Of a stretch of 64,000 nt of DNA, positions 31,084 to 54,569 are shown piece after piece. The position numbers were made by a program, and so were the translations under genes. Source of the stretch: Fibrobacterota bacterium (GTDB lineage Bacteria; Fibrobacterota; Fibrobacteria; UBA11236); contig JAQBPO010000064.1 of assembly GCA_028287465.1 (NCBI GenBank), forward strand, positions 1-64,000, given 5' to 3'. How positions within the stretch are numbered: position 1 is the stretch's first letter; each line of letters starts with the position of its first letter. The notes beneath the pieces were generated by a model that was given only the letters and a program-made list of their open reading frames with translations, ran no database searches and was not told the origin of the DNA.

Positions 31084-31154
31084 GATCCCATGATAAGGGG
31101 GTATCCGGCGGAAGGCATGCCGCCTTTACCGTTAATGCATGGCGGATATTACCT

Positions 31155-31352: not shown

Positions 31353-31417
31353 GTTCGGGAATTGGGAACCTTAAGTAAAACCATGCTACGGGCCTCGCCT
31401 CTTTAAGGAGCGCGGCC

Positions 31418-31528
31418 ATGATCAGGTGCCTGAGGATCCTTCAACCCTTTTATCCGGATTTAGCGGAACATATTGGTACGGATATCACCCCACAATCCCC
31501 AAATTTCGGACTGTGCGGATGGCATTAA
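31418..31528 (+). CDS. Possible 36-residue peptide
   Basis: AAGGAG lies seven bases before the ATG; the peptide reads MIRCLRILQPFYPDLAEHIG onward to GLCGWH. No homologue recognised, and it may be chance in a 470-bp gap that otherwise contains only the remnant at 31155-31352. Confidence 0.22.
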   Translation: MIRCLRILQPFYPDLAEHIGTDITPQSPNFGLCGWH

Positions 31529-31552
31529 CAAGAGACGAAAACGGCCATTTGA

Positions 31553-35186: not shown

Positions 35187-37049
35187 ATGAAAATCGCAGC
35201 GTTTTGCCTGGCCTTGGCGTCCGCGCCGGTCACCCAGGCCGCCATCGAATTCGTCTGGTGCCCCCTTTTCGACCGGGGCGCGGGCGTCAATCATCTCGAC
35301 AACGTCAACCGTTGCGCGCCGGGCGGCCTTCCGCTCAATGATGTACAGAACCTTCCCGATGTACGGATCTATGGGAACGGCTACGAAGGCTCCCTCTCCA
35401 CCGCGATCGCGCCCGCCATCCAGAATGCCTATAACAAAGGGGTCCGGGTCATCGACCTGCCTTTCGTCTACGGCGTCCAGGTCTGGAACAAAACCACGAG
35501 CGTCTGGGCCGATGAGCAGATCGCGGGCTTCAAGTGGCTGGAAGCCGTCGAGAAATTCAATTCGACCCGGGCATTGGCCGACAAGGTCAGGGTCCGCATC
35601 CGGTTCCAGGCGACCGCACAGACGCTGTTCGTGTATACCATCGATTACCTGCCCCGTAGGACGGGGTTGGCGGTGGTCACGGGATTGCCCGCGACGGAAC
35701 CGGGTTTCGGAGCCTGGCAACGCGACGGCAAGGCCTCGAACCTGATCCCCGATCTGGCCAATCCGAAAATCCGCGAAGCCATCGGTACCTATGCCAGGAA
35801 CATCCTGACGGAAGCGAAAACCATCGCCAAGACGACCACCATCGAATCCATGACCCTGGTATTCGACGGAGGCGGGGAAACTTCCCTGTTACCCATATCC
35901 ACCGAATCCATCCCCTATGGATTCAGGGACCGATTGCCCTTCAACCAGCTTTGGAAGCTCGAGGACAAGGCGAAATGGTTCCAGGGCCGCACCTTGCTTA
36001 TCAATACGACCCTGAAGGCATTCGCGACCCAGGTCCATGCCCAGAACAGCCGCCTGGATGGCACGGGACCCGCCGTCAAAGCGGCGATTTTCTACCAGAC
36101 CTGGCCCGGGGACGGGTACTTCCGGGGGGCATTCGATTTCTCGAGCCTGCTCGACGGCACGGGAATAGACCTGGTGCACCATTCCATGCACCCGATCCAG
36201 CTTCCCTATTATTCCGGCGAGGCCGCCACGCGCACCTCGACGCGGGAGGACGCGGCCATCCAGACGAGCGAATTGGGTTCCTTCCTGTCCGTCAACAAGA
36301 GGAAGGCGAACATCACTTACGCCTTCGACGCCGAATATTCCTGGCCGTGGTACAACTTCACGAACAACGAAGAGAAAATCGACTATGTAAGCCGAAAGAT
36401 CACGGACCAGAACGCCACCGGGTTCAAGAACCAGGCGGACGGCTCCATCCGGTACGGCGCCAACGGGACCACTTTCTGCAATTGGTCGAGGTATGACATG
36501 GAAAAGGGATTGTACCGTCCCTCGGACCCCCTCTTTCCCACCGGATCCACGGCCACGGCTTTCGACAAAGTGCTGAGTACGACCGCCAAGACCTCCCTGG
36601 GCGGGACCGCGGCCTTGGGCCCGGCCACGCGAGCCATATTCATCAGCACCATGGGGAAAATGCTCGCCGAGATCGACGGCGTGGAGGGGAAGACCCCGGA
36701 AGCGGTCGCGGCCTATCCCGGCTCCAAATATTACAAGGGCTGGTTCGCCGCGTTCGGCATCTCGCCGTTCAACGAGCGGATCGATTTCATCACCGATAAA
36801 ATGCTTTTGAAGTATCCATCCTTGCTTTCGGATTATACCGAGATTTTCATGCCCTTCGAAACCTCGAAGAGCGTGGACGCGGCCATCTTCAATGTCTTCG
36901 AGGCGGCCACCGACGCGAACAAGGCCAAGATCAGGTTCCAGATGGCGAAGGACAACGGTCTGACCCAGCTGCAGACCTACGATATGTGGAAGTTCAAGGT
37001 CCGGGTCTTCACCGGATTGAACACCTTCGCGAACGGCATCCTCTTCTGA
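35187..37049 (+). CDS. Large secreted protein of unknown function
   Basis: 620 residues, short signal peptide MKIAAFCLALASAPVTQA. The alternation of beta-like and helical segments (GVRVIDLPFVYGVQVWN, ESMTLVFDGGGETS, AAIFYQTWPGDGYF, IDLVHHSMHPIQLPYYSG, NITYAFDAEYSWPWYNF) suggests a TIM-barrel glycosidase-like fold, but I cannot name a family. Asp and Glu at strand ends (FDGGGE, FDAEYS) could be catalytic. No sorting tail is evident. Confidence 0.65.
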   Translation: MKIAAFCLALASAPVTQAAIEFVWCPLFDRGAGVNHLDNVNRCAPGGLPLNDVQNLPDVRIYGNGYEGSLSTAIAPAIQNAYNKGVRVIDLPFVYGVQVWNKTTSVWADEQIAGFKWLEAVEKFNSTRALADKVRVRIRFQATAQTLFVYTIDYLPRRTGLAVVTGLPATEPGFGAWQRDGKASNLIPDLANPKIREAIGTYARNILTEAKTIAKTTTIESMTLVFDGGGETSLLPISTESIPYGFRDRLPFNQLWKLEDKAKWFQGRTLLINTTLKAFATQVHAQNSRLDGTGPAVKAAIFYQTWPGDGYFRGAFDFSSLLDGTGIDLVHHSMHPIQLPYYSGEAATRTSTREDAAIQTSELGSFLSVNKRKANITYAFDAEYSWPWYNFTNNEEKIDYVSRKITDQNATGFKNQADGSIRYGANGTTFCNWSRYDMEKGLYRPSDPLFPTGSTATAFDKVLSTTAKTSLGGTAALGPATRAIFISTMGKMLAEIDGVEGKTPEAVAAYPGSKYYKGWFAAFGISPFNERIDFITDKMLLKYPSLLSDYTEIFMPFETSKSVDAAIFNVFEAATDANKAKIRFQMAKDNGLTQLQTYDMWKFKVRVFTGLNTFANGILF

Positions 37050-37291: not shown

Positions 37292-38395
37292 GTGATTGCA
37301 TCGATCATGCGCCGTTCCCATGGATACCCATTCCCTACCATAATGGCCGGATTCGGCCTGGCCGCCGCCCTGCTGTCCGCCGTCCCCGCCGGGGCCCAGG
37401 CCCAGACGCCCTTCAAGGTGCTCGGCCTGTTCAAGGCCGGCTATGACGCCGCCCATATCAATTACGCCCATGAGGCCAATGCCTGGTTCCCGAAGGTGGC
37501 GGCCGAGAACGGCTTCCAGTACGATTCCTCCAAGAACTGGGATCTGCTCAACGATCCCGCCCTGAACACCAAGTACCAGGTGGTCATGTTCATCGATGAC
37601 CAGCCTTCGGCCAGCCAGCATGCCGGGTTCCAGAAGTACATGGAGAACGGGGGCGGATTCATCGGCTTCCACGTCAGCGCCTTCTGCACCAATGCGGCGG
37701 ACTGGGACTGGTACCACAACAAGTTCCTCGGGTCGGGCGCCTTCCGCAGCAATACCTGGGGGCCCACCACGGCCCAGATGCGGGTCGAGGACTCCTCGCA
37801 CGCCGTGACCAAGGGATTCCCTCTCGTCTTCAAGTCCGAGGTCAGCGAGTGGTACAACTGGACCAATGATCTGCGGAAGAACCCGGACATCAAGGTCCTC
37901 TGCTCCATCGACCCGACCAGCTATCCCCTGGGCACCGATCCCAACCAATCCTGGCGCAGCGGGGACAACCCCATCGTATGGACCAACAAGAAGTTCAAGA
38001 TGATCTATTGCAATAGCGGCCACAACGACATGGACTACGCGGCGAATACGGCCAAGTCCCATACCTTCGACAATGCCCAGCACCGCACCCTGATCCTGAA
38101 CGCGCTCAAGTGGCTGGCCGGCCGCACGGTGACCTCCATCGGCGGGAATTTCGCGAACGCGGGCCGCGATGCGCGCATGGACATCCAATGGGGCAATCCC
38201 GGGCTCACCGTCTCCCGGCCGGGCCTGAGCGAGTTCGGAGTCGCCATCCTGGATTTGCAGGGGAACCGGATCACCGGAGGCAGCACGGCCACCGGCATGG
38301 TCTCCCTGGAACGGAACCGCCTCAAGAGCGGGTTCTACGTCATCCAGTCGACCTCCTCGGCCGGCAAGATCGCGCAAACCCTGCGGGTCAGGTAG
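37292..38395 (+). CDS. Secreted ThuA-domain protein 1
   Basis: 367 residues from a GTG preceded by GGAGG at eight bases; an ATG five codons later is an alternative. Signal peptide ends VPAGAQAQ. FKVLGLFKAGYDAAHINYAH, YQVVMFIDDQP, ENGGGFIGFHVSAF and SEVSEWYNWTNDLRK are the ThuA (glutamine-amidotransferase-like fold) motifs. ThuA proteins were first tied to trehalose use and are proposed to act on keto-sugars. It ends in a sorting-type module (VAILDLQGNRITGG, LKSGFYVIQS). Confidence 0.87.
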   Translation: MIASIMRRSHGYPFPTIMAGFGLAAALLSAVPAGAQAQTPFKVLGLFKAGYDAAHINYAHEANAWFPKVAAENGFQYDSSKNWDLLNDPALNTKYQVVMFIDDQPSASQHAGFQKYMENGGGFIGFHVSAFCTNAADWDWYHNKFLGSGAFRSNTWGPTTAQMRVEDSSHAVTKGFPLVFKSEVSEWYNWTNDLRKNPDIKVLCSIDPTSYPLGTDPNQSWRSGDNPIVWTNKKFKMIYCNSGHNDMDYAANTAKSHTFDNAQHRTLILNALKWLAGRTVTSIGGNFANAGRDARMDIQWGNPGLTVSRPGLSEFGVAILDLQGNRITGGSTATGMVSLERNRLKSGFYVIQSTSSAGKIAQTLRVR

Positions 38396-38522
38396 CAGCC
38401 CGCCTTCCGGGCCGCCCGAACCGTAGGGTCAGGACGGCGGCGGAGGCAAGTCCGGCCTTCGCCCCGTCCGCGCCTTCTTCTGCTCATTCGCCTGACCGCT
38501 CTCGCGTGCTTGCCCCGTTTGC

Positions 38523-40163
38523 TTATCGGGCTTTCAGCATCCTCACCTGCTTGATCTTCTCCGAATCCCCCTGGAAAGGTCCCTGCCCTATCCCGTAGAG
38601 CCGGACTTCCGGGACCAGGGTCTCGGGATATTCGCGCCAGGCCTCGGCGAAATCGGCGTTCACCTTGATGAGATGGCCCAGGATGGATTCCCCGAAGCGG
38701 CGCTTCAACTCTTCCGTGGGTTCCGCGTCCACTTCGAAGTAGAAGGCGGGCCTCACTCCGGCATCCGGCGTCTCCAAAAGGGATTGGCAGAAGGAGCGGG
38801 TGATGCGGGCCAGGTCCGCGTCCGCGTACACGCATTGCTCCAGGTCTTCCGGATAGATGTTCGCGCCCATCACGCTCAAGGTGAAGTCGCGGCGCCCGTA
38901 TATCCACAGGAAGGGCAGGCCCAGGCTCGCGCAGCCGGTTTCCGCGATCAGGTCGCGGATATCCCGGCCCGCCTTCTTGAGCGCTAGGGCCATCTCGTCG
39001 AAACGCATCACCCCGCCTTCGTCATGCACATTGTATCGGATGCGCGGGGAAAGCAGGGATCCGCGGGTGATGGTGAACAGCAGTTCGCGGTTATCGTTGG
39101 TTTCGATATGGTGCATGAGGGGATTGTATTGGAACACCATGGGCAGGCGCGAATCGTTCCCGAAGAGCGCTTCCCGCACGGCCGGATCGTCCTTGGCCAG
39201 CCTGCGGATGGCCACCGAGAGCGGCGTCTCCCCCGCGATCCCGATCTCCAGATCCGTGGCCCCGTAGCCGCTGAACACCTGGCGGAAGCGCTTGTACAGG
39301 TAGTCCCGCAGGCCTTCCGACATGCCTTCGCCCCCCACCAGGGCGTTGAGCCGGTACTCCTGCAGGGGGAACCCGCGCTTTTCCGCCGCGTCGATCAATT
39401 GCTTGAGGAAGGGCGGGTAGCCGAGCACCAGGTAGTCGTAGCCGGGGCCGAAGAAGGCGAGGGTATTCAGGATCTTGCCCAGGTCCGGGCCCGTATTCTT
39501 GACGATGCCGTTATGTTGCAAGGCCTGGCCCATATTGATGCCCGTGGCCCAGGCGCCCATGGAAAAGGCGTTGATGGTGATGCCGGGCTTCGGACCGAAG
39601 CAGTAGCGCGCGAAATAGCTGATGAAGAGATGGCTGTCCTTGCGCTCGCGCATATTGCGGACCCAATTGTAGGGCGTGCCCGTGCTCCCGGAGGACTCGT
39701 CGATCATGACGCCCTTTTCGGGGATGCGCCCGCCCACGCATCGGGCTTCGGGGGAGTAGGCCTTGATATAGGTGTCCTTGTCCATCTCGGGGACCCCGGT
39801 CCGGACGCCCCGTCCGCCCAGGTAACTCGCATAAGCCGGTACCTTGCGCGCTGCCCGGTAGAAGGACCGGCGGGCGCGGATTCGGCTGGTCCATTCCATG
39901 TAGCGGGGCGGCAATAGGGTGATCCCCCAAATGAAGGTCTCGTAACGGACGCAGATGAGGGCAAGCAGCAGGTCCCGCGGGCCCAGGGCCAGGAACTGGA
40001 GGCGTTCGAAAAGAGTGGGTCCCGGAGGCGCCTTCGTCGCGGTTGCGCCCGGAGACCGGACTTCCGGAACCTTTCGCGGCTCCGCTCCGGGTCCATTTCC
40101 GGCCCGGGGCTTGTCCAAGGTTTCCTGCGATTCTACGTTCATGGTAGCGTTCATGGTTCCCAT
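38523..40163 (-). CDS. PaaK-like acyl-adenylating enzyme
   Basis: 546 residues; several ATGs within the first eight codons make the exact start uncertain. MIDESSGSTGTPYNWVRN is the AMP/ATP-binding P-loop of phenylacetate-CoA-ligase-like enzymes, followed by FSGYGATDLEIGIAGE, PRIRYNVHDEGGVMRFDE and WIYGRRDFTLSVMGANIYPE with the late domain-turning region. About 70 N-terminal residues are Pro/Ala-rich and probably disordered. It would activate a carboxylic acid as acyl-AMP and then a thioester; substrate unknown. Convergent with ThuA 1. Confidence 0.88.
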   Translation of the reverse strand: MGTMNATMNVESQETLDKPRAGNGPGAEPRKVPEVRSPGATATKAPPGPTLFERLQFLALGPRDLLLALICVRYETFIWGITLLPPRYMEWTSRIRARRSFYRAARKVPAYASYLGGRGVRTGVPEMDKDTYIKAYSPEARCVGGRIPEKGVMIDESSGSTGTPYNWVRNMRERKDSHLFISYFARYCFGPKPGITINAFSMGAWATGINMGQALQHNGIVKNTGPDLGKILNTLAFFGPGYDYLVLGYPPFLKQLIDAAEKRGFPLQEYRLNALVGGEGMSEGLRDYLYKRFRQVFSGYGATDLEIGIAGETPLSVAIRRLAKDDPAVREALFGNDSRLPMVFQYNPLMHHIETNDNRELLFTITRGSLLSPRIRYNVHDEGGVMRFDEMALALKKAGRDIRDLIAETGCASLGLPFLWIYGRRDFTLSVMGANIYPEDLEQCVYADADLARITRSFCQSLLETPDAGVRPAFYFEVDAEPTEELKRRFGESILGHLIKVNADFAEAWREYPETLVPEVRLYGIGQGPFQGDSEKIKQVRMLKAR

Positions 40164-40471
40164 CCTATCCTGCGGTTAGGACGTAACCCGGGGGCGGCTT
40201 GGTTCCTCTCCTGCAAGGGGTTAAGGCTTGGCGGCGGCGCCCGGGGCGCAAAGGCCTGACGCCTGGAAATCCGGGTTTCGAGGGTTTATAGGGCGGATTC
40301 ACACGATTTTGCCCCGCTTTTCAATGATTTCGCCCCCAATCAAGGCACTTTTGGCCTTTCCCCGGTTTGGAGGCAGGATGGCGTTTTCCCTTGGTATTTG
40401 GTCGGTATTTGCACATTCTTCAATAGGTCCCGCCCCCCCGCCCGAAACGTCCAGGCTATGTTTTTCCCAGA
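40164..40471. other. Divergent intergenic region (308 bp)
   Basis: Between the acyl-adenylating enzyme and the third DUF1080 gene. A half-site GATTCACACGA (about 40299) resembles one arm of the shared palindrome; otherwise GC-rich low-complexity runs and no gene. Confidence 0.5.
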
Positions 40472-41530
40472 ATGAGAACCCGCTATTTGATCCTCATTCC
40501 CGTTTGCGCCTCCGTGATCCTGGCCAAGCCGGTCTGGAAACCGCTCTTCAACGGGAAATCCTTCGGGCCGGAATGGCGCTTCGTGGGCGACTCCGCCTTC
40601 TGGACCATCGATCCCAAGGACTCGGCGATCGTCGGGTATTCCGCCACCTCCAAGACGCCCCATTCCCTGCTCTTCACGAACAAGGCCGATTACGATCAGT
40701 TCACGGTGAAATACGCCTATCGCCTCAAGGCCGGTTGCAGCGGGTTCTGGTTCCGCACCCATGGGGCCACGCCCTCGGACGTGGCGGGACCCCAGGTCGA
40801 GATCAAACGCGAAGGCGCCGAGCTGCTCGAAGTCGGATCGATCTACGCCCATCCCGCTCCGGGCTGGGAAGTCCAGCATAGCCGCGCCTACTCGCTCAAG
40901 ACCGCTCCCAAGGTCGACGAATACCAGGAAGTGATCCTGACGGTGAAGAAGCCGAACGTCTACGTGAACGTGAACGGGAGCCAGGCCGTGGGCGAGACCG
41001 ATGCCGCCGCCCTCGCGGCCGGCGCGAAGCCCGCCTGGAATTACACCGGCTCGGAACCGGCCAAGCTGCCCGGATCCTTCGCCCTGCAGGTCCATGAGGG
41101 ATACGCCATCGACGTGCGGTTCAAGGGAATCATGATCCTGGCGGGATGCGGCGACGCGGCTTCGCCCCGCTACGACGGGGAGTTCGTGCCTGGATTCCCG
41201 AGGCAGCCCGCGGTGTATCAGGACGATGGCTCCTGCGGCGGGACCGGCCTGGAACAGGGTGGCCGTGGGGGTCTGAAGGGCCTGGAAGGCTTGGCGTATG
41301 CCCCCCATCTGGGGATGCCGCGGCGGATCGGCAACACCCTGGAATTGGCGGCGACCTGCGAAGGACCGAACACCTTGGACATCCTCACCTTGGATGGTCG
41401 TGCGGTTTTCAACGGTACCGCCCCGGGCGCGCATGTCTATCGGCTCGCGGCGCGCATGGAAGCGGGTCTGTATTTGGCGCGGCTCACCACCCTCAGGGGG
41501 ACGGAAAGCCGCAGGATCCTGGTCACCTGA
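40472..41530 (+). CDS. Secreted DUF1080 protein with sorting tail
   Basis: 352 residues with signal peptide MRTRYLILIPVCASVILA; no clear ribosome site. WKPLFNGKSFGPEWRFVGDS, CSGFWFRTHGATPSDVAG and GSFALQVHEGYAIDVRFKG are the DUF1080 pattern, in a version with less similarity to the other two copies. The last 90 residues carry a linker rich in Gly and a sorting-type module (LDILTLDGRAVFNG, MEAGLYLARLTT). It leads the row of ThuA genes, 61 bp upstream of ThuA 2. Confidence 0.85.
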   Translation: MRTRYLILIPVCASVILAKPVWKPLFNGKSFGPEWRFVGDSAFWTIDPKDSAIVGYSATSKTPHSLLFTNKADYDQFTVKYAYRLKAGCSGFWFRTHGATPSDVAGPQVEIKREGAELLEVGSIYAHPAPGWEVQHSRAYSLKTAPKVDEYQEVILTVKKPNVYVNVNGSQAVGETDAAALAAGAKPAWNYTGSEPAKLPGSFALQVHEGYAIDVRFKGIMILAGCGDAASPRYDGEFVPGFPRQPAVYQDDGSCGGTGLEQGGRGGLKGLEGLAYAPHLGMPRRIGNTLELAATCEGPNTLDILTLDGRAVFNGTAPGAHVYRLAARMEAGLYLARLTTLRGTESRRILVT

Positions 41531-41591
41531 AGGCCAGGCGGTCCCCGGCAAGGGATCGCGATTCGGACATCGGGGAAGAGAATCGGAACGG

Positions 41592-42665
41592 ATGGGTATG
41601 CATTCCAGACATTTGACGACGCGCGTTCTTGCCGGCCTCCTCCTGGCTTCGCCCTTCACGGCCTCGCCCGCGAGCACCCAGGCGCCCGCCCCGCGCTTCC
41701 GCATGATCGTGATCGGCGAGTTGAAGGACGATAAGGGGGACGATGAAATCCATAAGCCCTACGTGGAGGCCGGGACCCTCTGGCTGAACCAGCTGGCCAA
41801 GGACAGCGGATTCGCCGTCACCTATCTCACCAGCCCCAATACCATGACCGATTCCATGCTGGCGGGCATCGACCTGATCTGGCAGATGAACTATACCCCT
41901 TACCGCTGGACGGCCCCGGCCAAGGCCGCCTTCGAGAAGTACATGAACGCCGCCAAGGGCGGATGGGTGGGCGATCACCATGCCTCCCTGTACGGGCCCG
42001 TCCTGACGACGGATACCTGGCCGTTCTTCGCCAAGCTGATCGGCGAGGTCAATTACAAGAACTACATCTCCAAGTTCGCCTCCGGGAACGTCCGCGTGGA
42101 GGCCGCCGATCACGAGATCTTCAAGGGCGTCCCCGCCTCGTTCAATATCGCCACGGAAGAGTGGTACATCTGGGACAAGAATCCCCGTTCCAAGGTGCAT
42201 GTGCTCGCGAACGTGGACGAGAGCTCCTACAAGTTCACGGACCCGGCCGAGAGCGGCGTGAAGATGGGCGATCATCCCGTCATCTGGACCTATGACGGGT
42301 ACAAGGCCCGGAACCTCTACATCTTCATGGGGCACCATCCCAACCTCTTCCAGAATACGGCCTATACCACCCTGCTGCGGAACGCCTTGTTCTGGGCGGC
42401 CAACAAGCCCGCGCCCACGACGGCGGTCAAGCCGAAGGAACGCGCCGGAGGCATCGCCCTGGGTTCCGATACGCGATTCATCACCTTGCCGGCCGGAGGG
42501 CTGCGCGGTGTGACCGTGTCGGACGCGGCGGGACATGCGTTGTACCGCTCCGGGGAACGGGAAGCCGTCGACCGGATCGACCGTTCCCATTGGGGCGCGG
42601 GACGCTACCTGGTGCAGGCGGTTTCGGCGCAGGGCCGGGTCGCCCAATGGCTGGAGCTTCGATAA
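41592..42665 (+). CDS. Secreted ThuA-domain protein 2
   Basis: 357 residues from the ATG at 41592 (another in-frame ATG two codons later); signal peptide runs to about ASPASTQA. FRMIVIGELKDDKGDDEIHK, IDLIWQMNYTPYRW, AAKGGWVGDHHASLYG and ATEEWYIWDKNPRSKVHVL follow the ThuA layout but are the most divergent of the five. The end has a sorting-type module (VTVSDAAGHALYRSG, WGAGRYLVQAV). Followed by an intrinsic terminator. Confidence 0.85.
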   Translation: MGMHSRHLTTRVLAGLLLASPFTASPASTQAPAPRFRMIVIGELKDDKGDDEIHKPYVEAGTLWLNQLAKDSGFAVTYLTSPNTMTDSMLAGIDLIWQMNYTPYRWTAPAKAAFEKYMNAAKGGWVGDHHASLYGPVLTTDTWPFFAKLIGEVNYKNYISKFASGNVRVEAADHEIFKGVPASFNIATEEWYIWDKNPRSKVHVLANVDESSYKFTDPAESGVKMGDHPVIWTYDGYKARNLYIFMGHHPNLFQNTAYTTLLRNALFWAANKPAPTTAVKPKERAGGIALGSDTRFITLPAGGLRGVTVSDAAGHALYRSGEREAVDRIDRSHWGAGRYLVQAVSAQGRVAQWLELR

Positions 42666-42674
42666 GGCTTCGAT

Positions 42675-42702
42675 GGCCGCTTCGCGCGGCCGGATTTTTT
42701 TT
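42675..42702 (+). terminator. Intrinsic terminator between ThuA 2 and ThuA 3
   Basis: GGCCGC-TTCGC-GCGGCC stem-loop (42675-42691), then GGA and eight T. It lies ten bases after the ThuA 2 stop and 31 bases before the ThuA 3 start, splitting the row of genes into two units. Confidence 0.8.
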
Positions 42703-42733
42703 CACTTCGGTGGGGCCGAGGGGAAATGACATC

Positions 42734-43783
42734 ATGTTCGGATTGGCTAATCGCGGTACCGTGATCGATTCCGTATCGTCCAGGATTTTCACGGCGGCCC
42801 TGGCGCTCGCTTTGGTCGGACCGGGGATCGCCGCGGCCCAGACCGCGCCGAAATTCAAGGTTCTGGCCTTCTGCCCCATGAGCGGCGACGCCGGGCATGA
42901 CAGCTATATCCATGAGGCCAACAAATTCTTCCCCAAGCTGGCCGCCCAGAACGGATTCCAATACGATTCCACCAAGAACTGGAGCGATTGCAATCCCGCC
43001 AAGCTCGCCCAGTACAAGCTGGTCATGTTCCTGGACAACCGGCCCGATCAGCAGGCCCAGCGGGACGCCTTCAAGGCCTATATGGACAACGGCGGCGCCT
43101 GGATCGGATGCCATTTCGCCGCCTTCGCGCTGAACAATTCCGCCGTGCCCCAGAACTGGGACTGGTACCACAATGACTTCATCGGATCGGGCGAGTACAA
43201 GAGCAATACCTGGGCGCCCACGCCCGCCTTCCTCAAGGTGGAAGACGGCACCCACCCCTTCATGAAGGGCCTGCCGGGCCTGTTCAAGGCCTCCGCCAAC
43301 GAATGGTACCGCTGGAACAACGACCTGAAGGCCAATCCCAACATCAAGATCCTCGCCTCCATCGATCCGTCCAGCTTCCCCCTGGGCACGGGCCCCAAGC
43401 CGGAGGAGATCTGGCATAGCGGCTATTATCCCGTGGTGTGGACCAATATCAAGTACAAGATGCTCTACCTGAACATGGGGCATAACGATATCGATTACTC
43501 CAACGGCAACAAGGACAAGTCGCAGACCTTCGGCAATACCGTCCAGGACCAGATGATGCTCAATGCCATCCTCACCCTTACGGGCACCGCCCCGACCGCG
43601 ATCTCCGCGGGCCCCCGGGAGGCGGCGACCGGCGCGGCCAAGGTCACCGGTTTCCGTTTCGATGGCGGTACCATGACCATCGCCGCTCCCTCAACGGGCG
43701 GCTTCAAGGCCGCAGGTCCGCCGGACCCCGGATTCGGCGCGGACGGCCGCCGCGCACCCTCGATCCGGATCGTCCCCAAGTGA
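42734..43783 (+). CDS. Secreted ThuA-domain protein 3
   Basis: 349 residues from the ATG at 42734 (GAGGGG ten bases upstream), signal peptide ending GPGIAAAQ. FKVLAFCPMSGDAGHDSYIH, KLVMFLDNRPDQQ, MDNGGAWIGCHFAAF, ASANEWYRWNNDLKANPNIK and LNMGHNDIDYSN are ThuA motifs. It is nearly collinear with ThuA 4, indicating a tandem duplication. The sorting tail is shortened (GFGADGRRAPSIRIVPK). Confidence 0.87.
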   Translation: MFGLANRGTVIDSVSSRIFTAALALALVGPGIAAAQTAPKFKVLAFCPMSGDAGHDSYIHEANKFFPKLAAQNGFQYDSTKNWSDCNPAKLAQYKLVMFLDNRPDQQAQRDAFKAYMDNGGAWIGCHFAAFALNNSAVPQNWDWYHNDFIGSGEYKSNTWAPTPAFLKVEDGTHPFMKGLPGLFKASANEWYRWNNDLKANPNIKILASIDPSSFPLGTGPKPEEIWHSGYYPVVWTNIKYKMLYLNMGHNDIDYSNGNKDKSQTFGNTVQDQMMLNAILTLTGTAPTAISAGPREAATGAAKVTGFRFDGGTMTIAAPSTGGFKAAGPPDPGFGADGRRAPSIRIVPK

Positions 43784-43821
43784 ATCTCCCCATAAAGCCT
43801 TTTACCGGAATCCGGAAGGAC

Positions 43822-44880
43822 ATGACCATGCATTCCAACCCTACCCGTTCCTCCCTCGCCCTGGCGTCCTCGGTGGCCCTCGTCGCCTTCGCATCCTTCC
43901 TCGGGACCGCGGCCGCCCAGGATGCGCCCAAATTCAAGGTGTTGGGTTTCTCCACCACCAAGTCGGACGCCGGCCACGTCAGCTACGAGCATGAGGCCAA
44001 CCGCTGGCTGCCCAAGATCGCCAAGCAATACGGCTTCAGCTACGATTCCACCAAGGTCTGGACGGATTGCAATACCGCCAAGCTGTCCCAGTACCAGGTG
44101 GTGATATTCATGGACGAGCGCCCCGAGGATCCCGGCCAGCGCGCGGCCATCCGCAAATACATGGCCGATGGCGGCGGCCTGATCGCCTGCCACGGGGCCG
44201 CTTTCGAAATGGCCGGTTCCGAGCAGGCCATGAACTGGCCCTGGTACCACGACTCCCTTTTCGAATCGGGCGAGTACAAGAGCAATACCTGGCGGCCCAC
44301 CTCCGCCTTCCTGAAACGCGAAGACAGCACCCATCCCTTCATGAAGGGCCTTCCTGCGCTGTTCAAGTCCTCGCCCAACGAATGGTACCGGTGGAAGGTG
44401 GACCTCCGGACCAAACCGGACATCAAGATCCTCCTCTCCATCGACCCGTCCAGCTTCCCCCTGGGCACCGGTCCCAAGCCCGAAGAGATCTGGTACGACG
44501 GCTATTATCCCGTGGCCTGGACCAATACCAGGTACAAGAACAAGATGCTCTACGTGAACATGGGCCATAACGATCTCAACAGCCCCGCCACGGGCAAGGA
44601 TTCCCAGACCTTCGACAACGATATCCAGAACAAGCTGTTCATCAACGCCCTGCTGATCATGGGCGGCCTGGATCCCACCGCGGTCGCCAAACCCGCCGTG
44701 CAATCCGCCGCCAAGCCCATTCCAAAAACCGCCGCCGGTTTCCATCTCAAAGGCGCGGGCATGACGGCCTCCAAGACCCGCGGCGCCGAGGCCGGGGAGT
44801 CCGAATTCGACCTGCACGGCCGCGCCGTCAGCCGCGAAGCCTCCCCTGTCCACGCCGTCGAGAAAGCCGCAGCCAAATGA
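43822..44880 (+). CDS. Secreted ThuA-domain protein 4
   Basis: 352 residues; ATGs at 43822 and 43828 both follow GGAAGGA, the second at better spacing. Signal peptide ends GTAAAQ. FKVLGFSTTKSDAGHVSYEH, ADGGGLIACHGAAFEM, SPNEWYRWKVDLRTKPDIK and VNMGHNDLNSP align closely with ThuA 3. The C-terminus is Ala/Lys-rich, with only a trace of the sorting motif (EFDLHGRAVSREAS). Its stop overlaps the GH9 start (ATGA), so the two are translationally coupled. Confidence 0.87.
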   Translation: MTMHSNPTRSSLALASSVALVAFASFLGTAAAQDAPKFKVLGFSTTKSDAGHVSYEHEANRWLPKIAKQYGFSYDSTKVWTDCNTAKLSQYQVVIFMDERPEDPGQRAAIRKYMADGGGLIACHGAAFEMAGSEQAMNWPWYHDSLFESGEYKSNTWRPTSAFLKREDSTHPFMKGLPALFKSSPNEWYRWKVDLRTKPDIKILLSIDPSSFPLGTGPKPEEIWYDGYYPVAWTNTRYKNKMLYVNMGHNDLNSPATGKDSQTFDNDIQNKLFINALLIMGGLDPTAVAKPAVQSAAKPIPKTAAGFHLKGAGMTASKTRGAEAGESEFDLHGRAVSREASPVHAVEKAAAK

Positions 44881-46964
44881 AGTCCCCCGAAATCCAGAAA
44901 GCATCCTTTATGCGCATCCCCGACTCCCTCCGGTCCATGTCCTTCGGCATCGCCTTCTCCGCGGCGGCCTTCACAATCCTTCAGGCCGCTCCCGCCGTCT
45001 ACGTCAACCAGGTCGCCTACGATGCCGGCGGCCCCAAGGTCGCCGTGGTGCAGGCCGACGCCGAACTGGGCGCGACCGCCACCTTCACCCTCATCGACGC
45101 GGCCTCCTCGGCGGTGCAGGCCACCCAGCCCCTGGGCAAGGCCTACACCATCCCCGATTGGTTCAGCGGGCGCACCTTCTACCGGGCGGACTTCTCCTCC
45201 TTCAAGAAGGCCGGATCCTATAAGGTCGCGGTCACGATCAACGGCGCCCTGACGATCTCGCCCGCCTTCCGGATCGATGAGCAGGCCATGGCCAAGGAGG
45301 TTCTGCCCTCGATCGTCCGTTATATCCGCGGCCAGCGTGCGGACCGTCCCGAGGAATTGGCGGCGGACGCGTCCATCCTCCTGAACGACGGATCCAAAAG
45401 GGTCGACGTGCGCGGCGGCTGGGACGACGATGCGGGCAACAACAGCAAATACATGTCGCATCTCAACTACGCCAATTTCTTCTCGCCCCAGCAGATCCCC
45501 ATGCACGCCTGGGAACTGGCGGACGTCTACGAGCGCATCCCCGCCCTGGATTCCGCCCTGGGCATGGCCGACTCCATCCAGGCCGAGGCCCTCTGGGGCG
45601 CGGACTACCTGACGCGCGTCCTCACCTCCGGCGACTACTTCTACATGGTGGTCTTCGACTACCTCAATTCGGACGTGTCCAAACGCCGCGTGGGCGGCCT
45701 CCTGGCCAACAGCGTCACCGACAACAAATGGCAGTGCTCCTTCCGCGCCGCGGGGGGCATGGCCATCGCGGCCCTGGCGCGCATCTCCCGCTGGAACAAG
45801 AACGGGGCGTCCTATACGTCCAAGAATTACCTCGACGGAGCCAAGCGGGCCTTCGCGCATCTGCTCGTCAACAACAAGAACTACCTCTACGACGGCAAGG
45901 AGAACATCATGGACGATTACTGCGCCCTGATGGCCGCGACGGAATTGTGGATCGCCACCGACGACGTGCTCTATCAGACCGAGGCCCGCAAGCGGGCGCA
46001 GAACCTGGCGAACCGCGTTTCCAGCGCCGGGTACTTCATCGCCGATGACGGAACCCGCCCCTTCTGGAGCGCCTGCGACGCCGGGCTCCCCATCTGGGCC
46101 CTGGTCCGCTACCTGGACAAGGAGAAGGACGGGGCCAGCCGGACCATCGCCCTCACCGCCATCCGCAAGAACCTGGACTGGCAGCTTTCCATCACCAACA
46201 AGGTGCAGAACCCCTTCGGCTACGCCCGCCAGGCCATCTCCTACAAGGGAGCCATGAAGGAAAGCTTCTTCGTCCCCCATGACAACGAGACCGGCTGGTG
46301 GTGGCAGGGCGAGAATGCGCGCCTGGGCTCGCTCGCCACGGCCGCCATCCTGGGCGGACGCCTGGTGTATCCCGCCGACAATGCCTGGGGCCTCAAGGAC
46401 TCCCTGGCGGAATACGCGGTCAACCAGGTCTCCTGGGTGCTCGGCCAGAACCCCTATGCCATCTGCTTCATGTACGGGTTCGGCAAGACCTATCCGCCCA
46501 TCACCAAGTCCTACTTCGGCCATCAGTCCGGCAAGGGCGGCATCTCCAACGGGATCACAGGAAAGGTGGGCGCGCCCGACGGCGTAGGCATCGACTATTA
46601 CCCGCCGGGCAGCGATGACTGGCGCTTCACGGAGCAGTGGATCCCGCATGCGGTGCGCATGCTCGCCGCCACCGCGGCCATGGCCCAGGCTCCCGCAAAG
46701 ACCACGGGCATCCGCGCCCGCGCGCCGGAACTTCCCGAAGCCGCCTATGCGGTCAACCGCCGCAACGGCACCTTGGAGATCCGGTTCGTGAATCCCCTGG
46801 CCGCCCACGCCAAGGCCGTCCTCGCGGACATGAACGGCAAATCCGTCGGCGCCTGGGACGTGCGCCAAGGGGATCGGTCCACGTCGATCCCGTTGCCAAG
46901 TCTGGAAGAAGGAATCTATTTCCTCCGGGTCGGCGCGATTTCCCTCAAGCTGGAACTGCCTTAG
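44877..46964 (+). CDS. Secreted GH9-family glycosidase with N-terminal Ig domain and sorting tail
   Basis: 695 residues; an ATG at codon 12 is an alternative. After a signal peptide (to about ILQAAPA), residues 41-135 form a CelD-type Ig domain (VYVNQVAYDAGGPKVAVV). The (alpha/alpha)6 catalytic domain has VRGGWDDDAGNNSKYMSHLN, WQCSFRAAGGMAIAAL, PFGYARQAISYKGAM and WRFTEQWIPHAVRML with a candidate acid Glu. The usual GGWYDAGD base Asp appears as Asn (about residue 188). Ends with a sorting module (AVLADMNGKSVGAW, LEEGIYFLRVG). Expected to cut beta-glucans or related polymers. Confidence 0.88.
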   Translation: MKSPEIQKASFMRIPDSLRSMSFGIAFSAAAFTILQAAPAVYVNQVAYDAGGPKVAVVQADAELGATATFTLIDAASSAVQATQPLGKAYTIPDWFSGRTFYRADFSSFKKAGSYKVAVTINGALTISPAFRIDEQAMAKEVLPSIVRYIRGQRADRPEELAADASILLNDGSKRVDVRGGWDDDAGNNSKYMSHLNYANFFSPQQIPMHAWELADVYERIPALDSALGMADSIQAEALWGADYLTRVLTSGDYFYMVVFDYLNSDVSKRRVGGLLANSVTDNKWQCSFRAAGGMAIAALARISRWNKNGASYTSKNYLDGAKRAFAHLLVNNKNYLYDGKENIMDDYCALMAATELWIATDDVLYQTEARKRAQNLANRVSSAGYFIADDGTRPFWSACDAGLPIWALVRYLDKEKDGASRTIALTAIRKNLDWQLSITNKVQNPFGYARQAISYKGAMKESFFVPHDNETGWWWQGENARLGSLATAAILGGRLVYPADNAWGLKDSLAEYAVNQVSWVLGQNPYAICFMYGFGKTYPPITKSYFGHQSGKGGISNGITGKVGAPDGVGIDYYPPGSDDWRFTEQWIPHAVRMLAATAAMAQAPAKTTGIRARAPELPEAAYAVNRRNGTLEIRFVNPLAAHAKAVLADMNGKSVGAWDVRQGDRSTSIPLPSLEEGIYFLRVGAISLKLELP

Positions 46965-46979
46965 CGATTCCCGCGTCCC

Positions 46980-47978
46980 CTACCGGCCCGGACCCGCGAA
47001 CGGAAGGATCGAAAGGGTCCTTCCATCGGCCTTCATGAGGCGGGATTCCCCCTGGCTTTCCAAACCGAAGAAGCCGGCCCGCATCCATGCCTCGCCGCTC
47101 CCGCCCCGAAGCGCCTTGGCGACCGGCGCGCCCAGGTAGCCTTTCGCCGCATCGCGCGGATCCAGCCGCGTAGCGGCGGGCTTCGCCCAGAGCAGGGCCT
47201 CGCGGATCAGCAGGATATAATCGGGATTCTTCCAAACGCTCACGTCATGCCCTATTCCGATATAGGTCATTTTCGGATAGGCGGGATTCGTCCAGACGAT
47301 CGGATGATCCCCCTGGCTCTTGACCTGGTTATAGGTGGCTTCGTCCGCCTTGCCCAGGACATGGACCTTGGGCCGCGGGTTCCCGTTCCATTCATACCAT
47401 TCGTCCTTCAGCTGGAATGAGGCCGGCAGATTGCGCGTCACCGGATGGGTGCGGTCCTCGAAGACGATGGTGCCCGTCTGCAAAGCCGGATGGGTCACGT
47501 AGGTGACCCCGCCGAAGAAGGCCGTGTACCATGCCCAGGTCGGCTGGCTGCCGAACTGATCCCCGGTCAGGCCCGCCGCGTGCACCCCCACCCAGCCTTT
47601 CCCCCCATCGATGAACTTCTGGAAGATGGCGCGTTGCTTCACGGACATCTCGAAAGGGGCGAAATGCATTTGCAGGAAGACCTGGTACTTCCCCAGGTTG
47701 GCTTCCGTGATGAGACTGGTATCCATGGTATAGTCGACCGTGAACCCGTTGGCCGCGCCGATCTTCTCCACCTGGATCTTCGCTTCCGTGCTCATGACGA
47801 GGTGGTCCGCCGCCTTGGAGGCGATCATGAAGACCTTGAAAGGCGTTTGCGCGCGGATGCGCGATCCCGGGCCGGCCGCCCCCGCGGTAAGCAGGGCCAG
47901 GAGGGCGATCCGGGCCGCCCGTACCGGACCCCCTTGGCGCATGCGGGTCAATGGGGGCCGATGCGTTCTTGCGTTCAC
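46980..47978 (-). CDS. Secreted ThuA-domain protein 5
   Basis: 332 residues from a GTG with GGGAG five bases upstream; signal peptide ends SRIRAQ. FKVFMIASKAADHLVMSTEA, YQVFLQMHFAPFEM, DGGKGWVGVHAAGLTG and QLKDEWYEWNGNPRPKVHVL are ThuA motifs, closest to the classic Planctomycete-type ThuA proteins. The end (AGFFGLESQGESRLMKADG) may be a weak sorting tail. Convergent with the GH9 gene, 15 bp apart; a LacI-like palindrome lies 57 bp upstream. Confidence 0.87.
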   Translation of the reverse strand: MNARTHRPPLTRMRQGGPVRAARIALLALLTAGAAGPGSRIRAQTPFKVFMIASKAADHLVMSTEAKIQVEKIGAANGFTVDYTMDTSLITEANLGKYQVFLQMHFAPFEMSVKQRAIFQKFIDGGKGWVGVHAAGLTGDQFGSQPTWAWYTAFFGGVTYVTHPALQTGTIVFEDRTHPVTRNLPASFQLKDEWYEWNGNPRPKVHVLGKADEATYNQVKSQGDHPIVWTNPAYPKMTYIGIGHDVSVWKNPDYILLIREALLWAKPAATRLDPRDAAKGYLGAPVAKALRGGSGEAWMRAGFFGLESQGESRLMKADGRTLSILPFAGPGR

Positions 47979-48317: not shown

Positions 48318-50195
48318 ATGAAGCCGGGAAAAATCCGATCTTTATCCGCCGGGAAACCGCCGCTGCAAACCGCCATCCGCCTCGCCGCCGCTGCCACGGG
48401 CGCCATCTTGTGGGGATGCATGGAATCCGGCTCCCCGGGGTCCTCCCAATCCCAGGCCATGGCCATCCGCTCCGAAGCGGCGAATCCCTTTTGCAAGATC
48501 CAGACCCACCTGCTCGTCCTGGACGAGGACGCCATCGCGAACGGGAAGCATTGCCGATGCGAGGAAGCCGGAAGCAAGGAGCCGGGAAGGCACGACGATC
48601 CGGACGATGACCGCTCCAAAGGCGGAGGCGGCTCCGGGGGAAAGGGCGGTGCCGGCCAGGATGAAGGCAAGGACAAGGTGGAGATCTGCCATATCCCGCC
48701 CGGGAACCCCGGTAACGCGAAAACCCTTTCCGTGGGCGCTCCTGCGGTCAAGGCGCACTTGGCCCATGGGGATTATCTCGGAACCTGTTCTTGCGGTCTG
48801 GATGCGCCACGCGCCTCCGGAAAGGGGAATGGGAATGCGGCCTCCGCCGCCTGCATGCCCTCCTTTATCGGCAACCGCATCACCTTGTCCTCCTTCGCCG
48901 ATGCCGTGGGCAAGGAAATCACCCTGCCCGCGGGAACCCTCGGGGACGAAGGCTGGTTCGCCATCACGTCCGTCCGCATCGGCTGGAAGACCGCCGGGCC
49001 CGACTCCGGGGACGGCCTGCGGAACTATGCGGAGGCCGGTCCGGGATTGGGCAGGCCCGATGCCAAAGGGAACCGGGAAACCCTATTGGAACGCATCCCC
49101 GACCTCACGCCCTTGCGGGCCACGGGCCTGGCGCGCCTCCAAGGACGCTCCGTCTGCGCCGTGGTCCTGGACGGGGACGTGAAGATGGGATACGACCCGC
49201 TGGTGGGCGATATCCGCGGGCCCAACCTGGGGAAGGTCGCCTTCCAGGTCCTGTCGGTCCAATCCGATCCGCGGGGCGGCGCCCTGCCTTCCGTTACCGT
49301 GCGCATCCTGGATGCGGAGGCGGTATGCAACGATCCCCTGGCGCCTTTCCTGGAAGCCCCGCGCATCGTCTCGACGACCGAACCGCCCGATATCGAAAAG
49401 CCCTCCTGCGCGATCCAGGAAAACCTGGTGAGCGATCCTTGGAACACCCTGGATACCTCGGTATGGAGCGTCGACGGCGATCAGAGCATCGAAGACGGGC
49501 TTTTCTTCGCCCGGGAAGGGGCCGGTTCCGCCGCCGCCGACTGGATGCCCCCGTGCCCGGTGAGCGTGGATACTTCCACGGCCATCCGTTTCACCAACCG
49601 CCTCAGCCTGAACAGTCCGCGCCAGAACGAGTTCGCGGAAAGCGGCGCCCTGTTCCTGGTCATGACGGGCGAAGAGGGCGCGTTCGACAAATTCGTATTC
49701 GTGAACGTGGGCTATACCATGTCGCCCAGCAAGGTGTTCGTGGAACTTTTCGGCTCCGACGGCGGGAAGGATTTCGACCAATACGAGGAGACCAACATCC
49801 CTTTCACCACGAGCCAGCTTTTCAACGTGGACCTGTGGGTGCTTTCCGACGCCTACCGCGTGGCCGTGGCCGAGGAGATGATCGATACCGTGCCTCTGTC
49901 CGCCCGGCTGACCGGAGCCGGCCTGTTCGAGGTGGGCGTGCAGCAGAACGGAGGGGGCCTGCGCGGACTCGTCGACATGACCACGATCTCGAAACTCTGC
50001 AAGACCGTGGCCGTCGAAAACCGCTGCAAGCGCCATAGCCCCCACCGGGGCAAGAAGAAGGAGCGCCTGGGGACCCGCTGCCGGACCCGCAACCAATACG
50101 TGCGGATGGCCAGGGAAAGGATCAAGCATTGCGCGCACCCCTCGCGGAGCCTGGAAATCCTTTCCAAGATGCAGGAGCGGCCCGAATTCGATTGA
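48318..50195 (+). CDS. Lipoprotein with a CHIPPGNPGNA motif
   Basis: 625 residues, GAGGA before the ATG. The lipobox GAILWGC places the lipidated Cys near residue 34. A charged segment with a Gly-rich linker (about 85-117) precedes VEICHIPPGNPGNAKTLSVG and HLAHGDYLGTC, a small Cys/His motif seen in many secreted Bacteroidota-like proteins. Then comes a long beta-rich region and a C-terminal tail very rich in Lys, Arg and Cys (NRCKRHSPHRGKKKERLG, TRCRTR). Function unknown; a surface role is likely. Confidence 0.75.
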   Translation: MKPGKIRSLSAGKPPLQTAIRLAAAATGAILWGCMESGSPGSSQSQAMAIRSEAANPFCKIQTHLLVLDEDAIANGKHCRCEEAGSKEPGRHDDPDDDRSKGGGGSGGKGGAGQDEGKDKVEICHIPPGNPGNAKTLSVGAPAVKAHLAHGDYLGTCSCGLDAPRASGKGNGNAASAACMPSFIGNRITLSSFADAVGKEITLPAGTLGDEGWFAITSVRIGWKTAGPDSGDGLRNYAEAGPGLGRPDAKGNRETLLERIPDLTPLRATGLARLQGRSVCAVVLDGDVKMGYDPLVGDIRGPNLGKVAFQVLSVQSDPRGGALPSVTVRILDAEAVCNDPLAPFLEAPRIVSTTEPPDIEKPSCAIQENLVSDPWNTLDTSVWSVDGDQSIEDGLFFAREGAGSAAADWMPPCPVSVDTSTAIRFTNRLSLNSPRQNEFAESGALFLVMTGEEGAFDKFVFVNVGYTMSPSKVFVELFGSDGGKDFDQYEETNIPFTTSQLFNVDLWVLSDAYRVAVAEEMIDTVPLSARLTGAGLFEVGVQQNGGGLRGLVDMTTISKLCKTVAVENRCKRHSPHRGKKKERLGTRCRTRNQYVRMARERIKHCAHPSRSLEILSKMQERPEFD

Positions 50196-50885: not shown

Positions 50886-50955
50886 GTAGGAGCCGTCTTC
50901 CAGCAAAGCTCCTGATGGGTTGCCGGACAAACGGGAAACCATCAGGAGCGCCTAC
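50886..50955. repeat. Compound inverted-repeat element between convergent genes
   Basis: GCTCCTGATGG (50908-50918) pairs perfectly with CCATCAGGAGC (50939-50949), while AGGAGC (50888-50893) can pair instead with GCTCCT (50908-50913), and GTAGG/CCTAC close the ends. It could be a bidirectional terminator or a REP-like element. Confidence 0.6.
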
Positions 50956-50967
50956 AAAGGAAAGGAA

Positions 50968-53900
50968 TTAAGGCTTAACCATCGGGTTCCCCTTACAGGT
51001 TCCGCTTCCCGTGAAAGTGATGTACTCGATATCGGTATCGCAATTGAATGACGTATTCACGCCGATGGATATGGTGGAATTGTCGTACACCGCCAAATCC
51101 TTGGTCGATTCCGTTTCCCATTCATAACTGTTCATATAAAAACTGGTGGAACCCGACAGGGCCAATTTCCCGTCGAATACGGCTACCGCATACCCGGGAC
51201 CCCAATTGACAACGTTTCCCTTTATCATGCTGTTGTCGAAAGTCGCCTCGCTGTTTTCTCCGATCCGGACCACATTCACGCGATACTTCCCATTGAAGAT
51301 AGTATCGTTTTTCGCGGTGAGTTTCGACCCGTTCTGCAAGTCGATGGCATAGTCCACGAGGCTGACCAGGTCCGGAGCGAACTTCGAGTCGAAAAGGTTT
51401 ATCGCGCACCTCTTCGCAGTGACGGTTTGGCCGAAAGTGAAATTATCGATAGTGATAAGGTTGGCGGCATCTGAGCATTCAGCATAGACACCGGAGGTAA
51501 ACGTATTCACCGGAGTACGGCCACTTGTTGTTACCGGAAGGGCGGTGGCGTTGAACCCGCCTAGAATGGATATGCCGTATGTAGGCGTAAAGCCGGGGTA
51601 CGTACCGGATGCCACCCAATATTCATTCTTGGGATTGTTCGGAATCGCGATCAGGCTGGTCGGATCCTTTTTGGCCTTTTCCCAGCTGGACCCGTCCCCG
51701 TCAACGGAGTTATTCGCGTTTATGAAATAGGTATTGGGCCGATAATACACCGTAATGGACGCATCGGTTTTGTTTCCCGCGGCATCCGTTTCGCTCACGG
51801 TGCAGGTGTTGGCCTGATTTATTTTGGTCAAGGTGCAATTGACGGTCGGGGCCGCAACGTTATCGATCTTGTAGGTGATGGCCACCGGAGTGGTATTCGT
51901 GATGAAGTTATTCCGCGTGGAAATCGCCAGCGCGGGGAAGGTCCTGTCCAAAACGATTGTGAACGTACCTTCCGCGCCCCATCGACCCAGCCCATCCAAC
52001 TCCTGTACCCGTATGGTATAGGTTCCGTCGGGGGTGGTGGATGGAAGTGAGAAGGTGCGTGTTGTATTGTTGGATTCACGGTAAGCGCCTTCCGAATTGA
52101 CCTTGATCCTATATATGTCTAATCCCCTGGCCCCGCTTGTCCAGCTGAAATTCAGGAACCGGGAAGGTCCATTGTCCGGAACACCGGAAGGACCGGAAAC
52201 CGTCGGAGCCGCAGGAGCGTTAACGGCTATCTGGTATCGGAAGGATTTAGCCGCGCCCAACACGCCCTCCACCCTGTCCTTCTGCCGCACCGAAAGGGTA
52301 TGCGTCTGATTGTCGGAAAGCGCACTAGGGGTGAACACCGTCCCATTTACGATAACGGGTAAGGCCGCACCGTCCAGGGTTACTTCATAGGAGTTGATGC
52401 CTCCGTTGGTCAGGGAAGGGCTCCAGCTCCAAGTCGGAGGGTTGTCGCTCGTAAATCCGTTCTCGGTTCCCGAGAAACTGACGGTATCCGGCGCCTTGGT
52501 ATCCACTGTTACGGATTGGCTGGCGGCGCTTGAGGCATTGCCCAAGGCATCCACTGATCGGACATAAAGCACGTATTCCCCATCCGGCGAAACGTTAAGC
52601 GTATGGTTGAGGGTGGTCTTTTCGATGTTTCCCTGGGTTTTCGTGAAATCGCCATCCCCGAAACGCACCTGATATTTGGCCGCGCCGGCCACCGGGCCCC
52701 AGGTCCATGTCGGCGTATTGTCATTTGTGAATAGGGGTTGGGAAACAAGGGCCGGGACTCCCGGTGCGGACCGATTTACGTCCAGCACCACCTGATCCTT
52801 TCCCGTACCGCCCGCATTGACCCTGGATACGATAACGGTGTTTTTTCCGTCGACCAGGTTATTCACGAGGCTGTCCTTGGAGATGTCAATCCCAGAGGAT
52901 GGGTCTTTAACCGTAAAGCGGATCGTATAGGAAAGCTGATTGATGGTTATATCCGTCGCAGGATCGAAGATGTCAACTATGGGAGCAGCCGGCGGATTCA
53001 CGATGACGTTGCGATGGACATCCACCTTGTTGCCTTCGCTATCCTTGATCTGGAAATTGAGGGAGTAGGTTTTTGCTTGGCTGTATTTGGCTTTGAACTG
53101 CGCCGTGCTTTTGGCAAGAACGGTTTGCTCATAGATGCCATCACCATCCATGTCCGCTTTTATTTCCGCCACGGTTCCATTCGCCTGGGTTACGGATATA
53201 TCGAAAACCGCCTCCGCTCCGAATGTGATGGTTTGGTCCGCCGTGATGGTCGGAATCGGCGGGTCGGTTATTACGGTTACGGTGCATACGCTTGATATGG
53301 CAGGGTACCCTACTACCGATGCAGTTATATAGGCCGTGCCCGATTTCCAACCCTTCACGGATCCTTCGGCCGATACCGAGGCAAATGCAGCATCGGAACT
53401 TGCCAAGGCGTAAACCGCGCCGGATGTATCGCTTCCGATTAAGCTCACGGTCAATTTTCCTTCATCGCCACCGGAATAAATCGACATTGTACTGGGAGAA
53501 AGGCTTATTCCGCCCACTTTGATCGGCACAATGATATTCAATTCGAAACTGGCGCTGATTTTCGGGTCTTCTTTCGACTTGGCGGTAATAGTAGTTTTAC
53601 CCGCCTTTAATGGTTTCACCTTATTTTCGAAGGTGATCACTGCTTTTGCCGTATCCGTTATCGACCAGACAATTTCCTGTGAAACACCCTCAGGATAGAT
53701 TCTGGCTGCCAAATCACCTTTGGCTCCCCCCTCGGCTAAAACCATGGGGGTGGGTACCAGAATGGAAATCGAAGTAGGCTTGACTCCCAAGGCGCCGACA
53801 TTCACCATCAAGGTGGTTTTGATTTCCGGCTTCACACTACTTGCCGCCGTCACCTCTACGCTACCAACCTTCAGTCCCTTTATTTTGTTTCCCGCTTCGA

Positions 53901-54453: not shown

Positions 54454-54549
54454 TTTTATCCTTGGAAAATCGAAACCGAATTGATGGACTAAAAATCGCG
54501 GACTTCATCCCAAACCATTTTAAACATAACCCAAATCTTCACCCCGGAA

Positions 54550-54565: not shown

Positions 54566-54569
54566 TATG

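Follow-up and report, generated by a model that had tools for sequence, protein, structure and literature searches.

In rhizobia, ThuA is encoded in the trehalose operon thuEFGKAB, and thuAB is needed for 3-ketotrehalose, a point in favour of a keto-glycoside pathway. Five proteins of the same Pfam family (PF06283) are encoded, together with a DUF1080 protein (PF06439, 3keto-disac_hyd) and a glycoside hydrolase of family 9 (GH9), at 37.3-48.0 kb of a 64,000-nucleotide stretch of Fibrobacterota DNA (contig JAQBPO010000064.1, assembly GCA_028287465.1), hereafter the window. Unlike the rhizobial protein, these ThuAs are secreted, diverged and present in several copies, and their partner is GH9 instead of the ThuB dehydrogenase. 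The window genome (5.8 Mb) is referred to as G000, and two further species of the same genus as G002 and G005.

For the GH9 protein, the closest described systems are VC0615 (6gdt), PBPRA0520 (5dgq/5dgr) and VP2484 (3h7l). VC0615 is an exo-enzyme that prefers the glucosamine dimer (GlcN)2 over cellobiose and does not split the N-acetylglucosamine dimer (GlcNAc)2 (PMC6096475). The window GH9 falls in the same subgroup over its whole length, but unlike these enzymes it is secreted and operonic with ThuAs, and it carries an Asn at the Asp144 equivalent and 21 changed sites, also found in G005. DUF1080 has been linked genetically to 3-ketolactose, and BT2157 to 3-ketotrehalose (PMC9007349). BT2157 and CCNA_01705, the 3-keto-disaccharide hydrolases of that work, share the Pfam family of the window DUF1080, which unlike them adds a C-terminal sorting-like tail and stands in an operon without LacABC or a Gfo/Idh dehydrogenase. 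A secreted ThuA is tied to glycoside cleavage in Cellulosimicrobium cellulans F16, where the purified ThuA-GSDH-PKD-CBM6 protein M768_06655 was the key subunit of a β-xylosidase/β-glucosidase complex, its active domain not being identified (PMC4562250). The sugar dehydrogenase family GSDH is also found in the G002 cluster; compared by description only, M768_06655 differs from the window cluster as a single fused polypeptide with GSDH and without GH9. SGBP-lev (8aa2) and the N-terminal domain of Agd3 have the same GATase1/ThuA-like fold as the window ThuAs but are binding modules, and the conserved surface residues of ThuA are reportedly missing from Agd3 (PMC7229062). A literature search found no description of a pairing of ThuA with GH9, or of ThuA with DUF1080, in carbohydrate systems.

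The best explanation, with a probability of roughly 45%, is that the locus represents a conserved secreted module of ThuA and exo-GH9, not described before, in the form it takes in Fibrobacterota; it would trim β-linked glucosyl or glucosaminyl ends. The Pfam search of the region returned five ThuA proteins (E 2e-28 to 3e-40; 100-139 bits against a cut-off of 33.4), one DUF1080 (65.8 bits against 26.8) and one GH9. A heuristic analysis found hydrophobic, signal-peptide-like N-termini on all seven, in line with secretion. The gene content proposed in an earlier sequence-only reading was thus confirmed. The features are as follows.

37307-38395 (alternative start 37277), plus strand: ThuA A, subfamily A/C/D, secreted, with a C-terminal sorting-like tail (PF06283, E 9e-33; tree)
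38523-40163, minus strand: PaaK-like open reading frame, unrelated, between ThuA A and the remaining cluster
40472-41530, plus strand: DUF1080 (3keto-disac_hyd), opening the conserved run (PF06439, E 7e-18)
41592-42665, plus strand: ThuA B, of the subfamily that neighbours exo-GH9 or is fused to it in other phyla (PF06283, E 3e-36)
42734-43783, plus strand: ThuA C, subfamily A/C/D, tandem duplicate of D (PF06283; tree)
43780-44880, plus strand: ThuA D, subfamily A/C/D, overlapping GH9 (PF06283; AlphaFold model)
44877-46964, plus strand: GH9, exo-glucosidase/glucosaminidase group, with a rebuilt catalytic motif (Glyco_hydro_9 and CelD_N)
46980-47978, minus strand: ThuA E, third subfamily, convergent with GH9 (PF06283, E 3e-40; Mucilaginibacter orthologue beside ThuA B)
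48318-50195, plus strand: lipoprotein-like protein without a Pfam or NCBIfam match, conserved near the ThuA genes in G002 and G005

In a scan of 84,980 species genomes, 54 loci with relatives of this GH9 were found, mostly in Bacteroidota. In 26 of them, the two Fibrobacterota relatives counted in, ThuA was either fused to GH9 or lay next to it on the same strand (<160 bp); the phyla were Bacteroidota, Fibrobacterota and Gemmatimonadota, and both gene orders occurred. Fusions were GH9-ThuA in two Pedobacter and ThuA-GH9 on a 480-kb Gemmatimonadota contig. The 5-kb Capsulimonas contig (L106) shares the soil data set of G002 and is possibly misbinned, and Armatimonadota is therefore not claimed as a host phylum. 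Since each of twelve genomes checked held only 2-7 ThuA genes, chance adjacency to GH9 was estimated by us at about 0.1%. In the tree, the first-partner ThuAs of GH9 and window ThuA B formed a single clade (support 100/99). Genome comparison thus shows ThuA B as the dedicated partner of an exo-type GH9, adjacent or fused.

Window ThuAs A, C and D grouped with the second ThuAs from Pedobacter HMWF019 and two Niabella, while E represented a third subfamily. The split of C and D predates the divergence of the three Fibrobacterota species. Phylogenetic placement assigns the five ThuAs to three old subfamilies, namely B, A/C/D (with C and D as tandem duplicates) and E. Independent divergence of five copies in place was ruled out by the tree. 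The proposal that five diverged copies serve different linkages was not upheld; what was found instead was local duplication and three old subfamilies that co-occur in a second phylum.

That second occurrence was found in Mucilaginibacter, where 15 of 80 genomes carried a close ThuA E (63-100% identity). ThuA B stood beside it in all 15 loci, and exo-GH9, E, B and an A/C/D-type ThuA occurred together in 13, the remaining two being cut by contig ends. The three window subfamilies of ThuA thus occur as a conserved set. This co-occurrence in two phyla shows, by comparison, that E and A/C/D belong to the ThuA B/exo-GH9 module. A second locus of Mucilaginibacter OK098 (L107) encodes GH9, a redoxin, ThuA E, ThuA B, DUF4468, an A/C/D-type ThuA and a copper amine oxidase. 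Mannose-family phosphotransferase system (PTS) genes flank many of the Mucilaginibacter GH9/ThuA operons; in several species the copper amine oxidase closes the operon and the PTS genes are divergent (L107, L134, L135, L138).

Within the genus, the order DUF1080-B-C-D-GH9 was kept in all three species. The gaps in this run are 61, 65, -4 and -4 bp, so that it reads as a single transcription unit; the 65-bp gap was counted up to the base preceding the ATG of C, and the -4 between C and D assumes a GTG start of D. The translational coupling suggested for ThuA D, the fourth ThuA, and GH9 agrees with the 4-bp overlap in the window and in G005, but the two genes lie 25 bp apart in G002. The G002 cluster consists of ThuA A, GSDH, DUF1080-B-C-D-GH9, the lipoprotein-like gene and ThuA E. 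Orthologues of the DUF1080 protein occupy the same place with 65% identity in G002 and 59% in G005, and the lipoprotein-like protein is 55% identical in G002 (L034) and 50-65% in G005 (L037). The ratio of non-synonymous to synonymous substitution rates (dN/dS) between G000 and G005 lay between 0.23 and 0.35 for every gene in it. A search with ThuA D at a stringent cut-off found close copies in 3 of 61 genomes, its own among them, and all three belong to this genus. The earlier view of the cluster as one functional unit, and a conserved one, is supported.

The GH9 protein matched VC0615, PBPRA0520 and VP2484 over its whole length (E 1e-98 to 7e-108), and these were its only solved relatives with E < 1e-3. 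Its sequence places it with the exo-glucosidase/glucosaminidase subgroup, and it is assigned to GH9 of the exo-glucosaminidase lineage, VC0615-like hydrolysis being putative. A cellulose-degrading GH9 was ruled out, the nearest solved proteins being exo-glucosaminidases. D184, N188 and E586 stand at the positions of Asp140 (proposed base), Asp144 (water-holding) and Glu546 (acid) of VC0615. Both the base and the acid equivalents are kept in the alignments, and the second water-coordinating Asp is replaced by Asn in the window and G005. The motif GGW(C/A/T)DASGD(V/I)SKYFSHL was present in all other scan loci with a readable motif, and a second Mucilaginibacter GH9 group has GGWYDATGDYGK, with both Asp kept. 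Only the window and G005 proteins have GGWDDDAGNNSKYMSHL, in which DDDAGN replaces CDASGD. For GH9 cellulases the base is usually assigned to the second Asp of DAGD, and N188 might accordingly stand at the base position; the new Asp185 might compensate. Of 173 columns that are at least 98% invariant elsewhere, 21 were changed in both proteins, compared with 0-6 in other lineages tested, and a long branch leads to the pair in the tree. The rebuilding of the active site in these two species suggests that GH9 substrate or mechanism has probably shifted. A decaying gene was ruled out by the dN/dS of 0.28 (G000 against G005), which indicates purifying selection, and by the identical changes kept in G005. 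A frameshift behind the odd motif was unsupported by the codons. Three other GH9 genes are present elsewhere in the G000 genome.

The AlphaFold model of ThuA D had a mean pLDDT of 78, with much of the core above 90. It matched 4jqs, 4pxy, 4e5v and 1t0b, whose titles assign no activity, and then class I glutamine amidotransferases. The likely nucleophile-elbow position of this GATase1 fold is taken by an invariant His, as judged by alignment. H138, E201, Y203, W247 and H263 (D numbering) were invariant in 40 diverse sequences with identities down to 16%, and these residues together with H66 are kept in all five window ThuAs. The usual D242-H243 is YY in C and D and DN in A, and C has GYYP for GDHP. 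The model of the Pedobacter GH9-ThuA fusion showed two well-formed domains whose mutual orientation is not firm; it ranked VC0615-type structures first (TM score about 0.89) and also matched ThuA 4jqs.

In the proposed module, GH9 would remove β-linked glucosyl or glucosaminyl units singly from the non-reducing end. The ThuAs would act enzymatically on the ring of the terminal sugar, in residues that GH9 either releases or is unable to remove; these residues would most likely be modified (oxidised or N-/O-substituted). In Fibrobacterota, DUF1080, and in one species GSDH, would have been added, so that cleavage of keto-sugars may supply this step or come after it. For the rebuilt GH9 of the window species and G005, a change of substrate or mechanism is probable. 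Counted in favour of the module, beside the gene order and pairings above, are the mannose-family PTS genes at many Mucilaginibacter operons, the glucosamine-6-phosphate-isomerase-family genes by some GH92-GH9 fusions, the invariant ThuA residues and the dN/dS values. It is unlikely, though conceivable, that the ThuA enzymes alter the terminal ring (e.g. to a keto- or eliminated sugar) and that bond cleavage is then completed by the partner GH9, in the window lineage with its rebuilt site, in a way that differs from ordinary inverting hydrolysis.

Several points weigh against the proposed module. The ThuA family is without a demonstrated reaction, and the solved ThuA structures that were found carry no assigned activity. 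ThuA-like domains of SGBP-lev and Agd3 bind levan (PMC7618045) and galactosaminogalactan (PMC7229062), respectively. ThuA lies near only about half of the exo-GH9 relatives, and many of the loci come from closely related Flavobacterium, so that independent events are far fewer than 26 and were counted as at least four separate arrangements. With its Asp to Asn change, the window GH9 may no longer be hydrolytic.

The sequence-only reading had proposed an extracellular 3-keto-glycoside pathway, in which GSDH/PQQ (pyrroloquinoline quinone)-type or copper-radical enzymes oxidise C3 (or C6), the ThuAs and DUF1080 cleave, and GH9 supplies ends. As the explanation of the locus this is doubtful, but it has the better claim among the alternatives. 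The dehydrogenase and copper-radical-type oxidase genes on which it drew are indeed present elsewhere in the window, as two GSDH genes (16411-19716, plus strand; 56227-58131, minus strand) and a glyoxal-oxidase-like gene (60851-62635, minus strand). DUF1080 lies inside the operon of three Fibrobacterota species and GSDH inside that of G002, and the published link of DUF1080 to 3-keto-disaccharides (PMC9007349), the M768_06655 subunit (PMC4562250) and ThuA-GSDH fusions in Mucilaginibacter, at places other than the ThuA/exo-GH9 operon, point the same way. The three families are also expanded and co-localised in the G000 genome, which encodes 23 ThuA (22 above cut-off), 33 DUF1080 above cut-off and about 47 GSDH genes. 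By a simple random-placement model, 7 of 16 ThuA loci had DUF1080 or GSDH within 5 kb, where 1.8 would be expected, and 10 of 33 DUF1080 genes had GSDH within that distance, where the expectation is 2.4, which gives modest support to a shared theme. However, the window cluster holds no dehydrogenase, the nearest GSDH in the window being about 8 kb away, and none lies on the G005 contig. Neither DUF1080 nor GSDH was found near the ThuA/exo-GH9 units in 12 genomes outside Fibrobacterota, by listed positions, the nearest DUF1080 being about 24 kb away (Niabella). Keto-sugar chemistry is therefore not a necessary part of the core: a keto-glycoside step is possible in Fibrobacterota, but it cannot explain the conserved ThuA/exo-GH9 pairing.

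The remaining alternatives differ in what the ThuAs would do. Should they be non-catalytic partners that hold the glycan chain for GH9 and DUF1080, the GH9-ThuA fusions would resemble arrangements of glycoside hydrolases with carbohydrate-binding modules, and levan and galactosaminogalactan binding by the two related domains would fit. This is improbable, as polar H138, E201, Y203 and H263 are invariant in highly diverged ThuAs, whereas Agd3 is reported without the ThuA surface residues, and three subfamilies side by side are much for mere binding. Less probable still is that the ThuAs strip N-acyl (or O-acyl) groups so that a GlcN-specific exo-GH9 can act. The GATase-like fold includes amide hydrolases, and its group contains glutaminases as well as an N-acyl amino-acid acylase, VC0615 has the matching specificity for (GlcN)2 over (GlcNAc)2 (PMC6096475), and glucosamine-6-phosphate-isomerase-family genes occur near some GH9 relatives; but the catalytic Cys of GATases is probably replaced by His (at the H138 alignment position), trehalose, to which ThuA is linked, has no amide, and sharing a fold shows no function. 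A chance gathering of common secreted proteins, which the 23 ThuA and 33 DUF1080 genes of G000 would favour, is hardly credible, being refuted by the order kept in three species, by the recurrence of these subfamilies with exo-GH9 in further phyla and by the fusions. The leads on ThuA function do not agree with one another.

Further observations were made on the locus and its relatives. The closest relatives of the G002 GH9 and ThuA B lie on the Gemmatimonadota contig (L100), ahead of the window orthologues; this suggests transfer across phyla. In Chitinophagaceae, exo-GH9 is fused behind a GH92 domain (L089, 1453-5406; L093, 1-3552); the glucosamine-6-phosphate-isomerase-family genes lie near some of these fusions, and mannose-family PTS genes near L093. 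The GSDH set is unusually large, with more than 70 matches in G005 besides the approximately 47 genes of G000. TIGR04183 (type IX C-terminal sorting) scored 16.6 bits on the GH9 tail against a cut-off of 23, and similar-looking tails are present on A, B and DUF1080. Just upstream of ThuA A, a 620-residue secreted protein (35187-37049, plus strand) had no Pfam, NCBIfam or PDB sequence match; the PDB sequence search with this protein and that at 48318-50195 gave nothing useful. Two extra DUF1080 genes that had gone unnamed in the sequence-only reading lie at about 3459-4430 and at 26459-27667, both on the minus strand. Third-position GC was about 0.6 at approximately 26400-32700 and 50900-58200, compared with about 0.83 elsewhere in the window. 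These low stretches, which hold the DUF1080 gene at 26459-27667, an acyltransferase, a Big_2 repeat protein and one GSDH, have perhaps been recently acquired.

In the phylum sample, ThuA and strong DUF1080 matches were concentrated in the family of the window species; the matches listed for the sister family f3 included no ThuA, and DUF1080 matched there no more than once per genome and weakly (E 1e-5 or worse). Set against this sampled sister family, the enlarged ThuA, DUF1080 and GSDH repertoire of these Fibrobacterota suggests a different use of plant or microbial glycans within the phylum. The rebuilt GH9 offers a natural experiment on how a glycosidase changes after loss of the water-holding carboxylate. 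A large and widespread family, ThuA has solved structures to which no activity is assigned; its function becomes directly testable through a dedicated, well-understood exo-glycosidase partner, natural fusions of either order and the compact operon found in Mucilaginibacter and Flavobacterium, both culturable. The recurrence of the ThuA/exo-GH9 set, partly fused, in distant bacteria points to an undescribed way of glycan breakdown.

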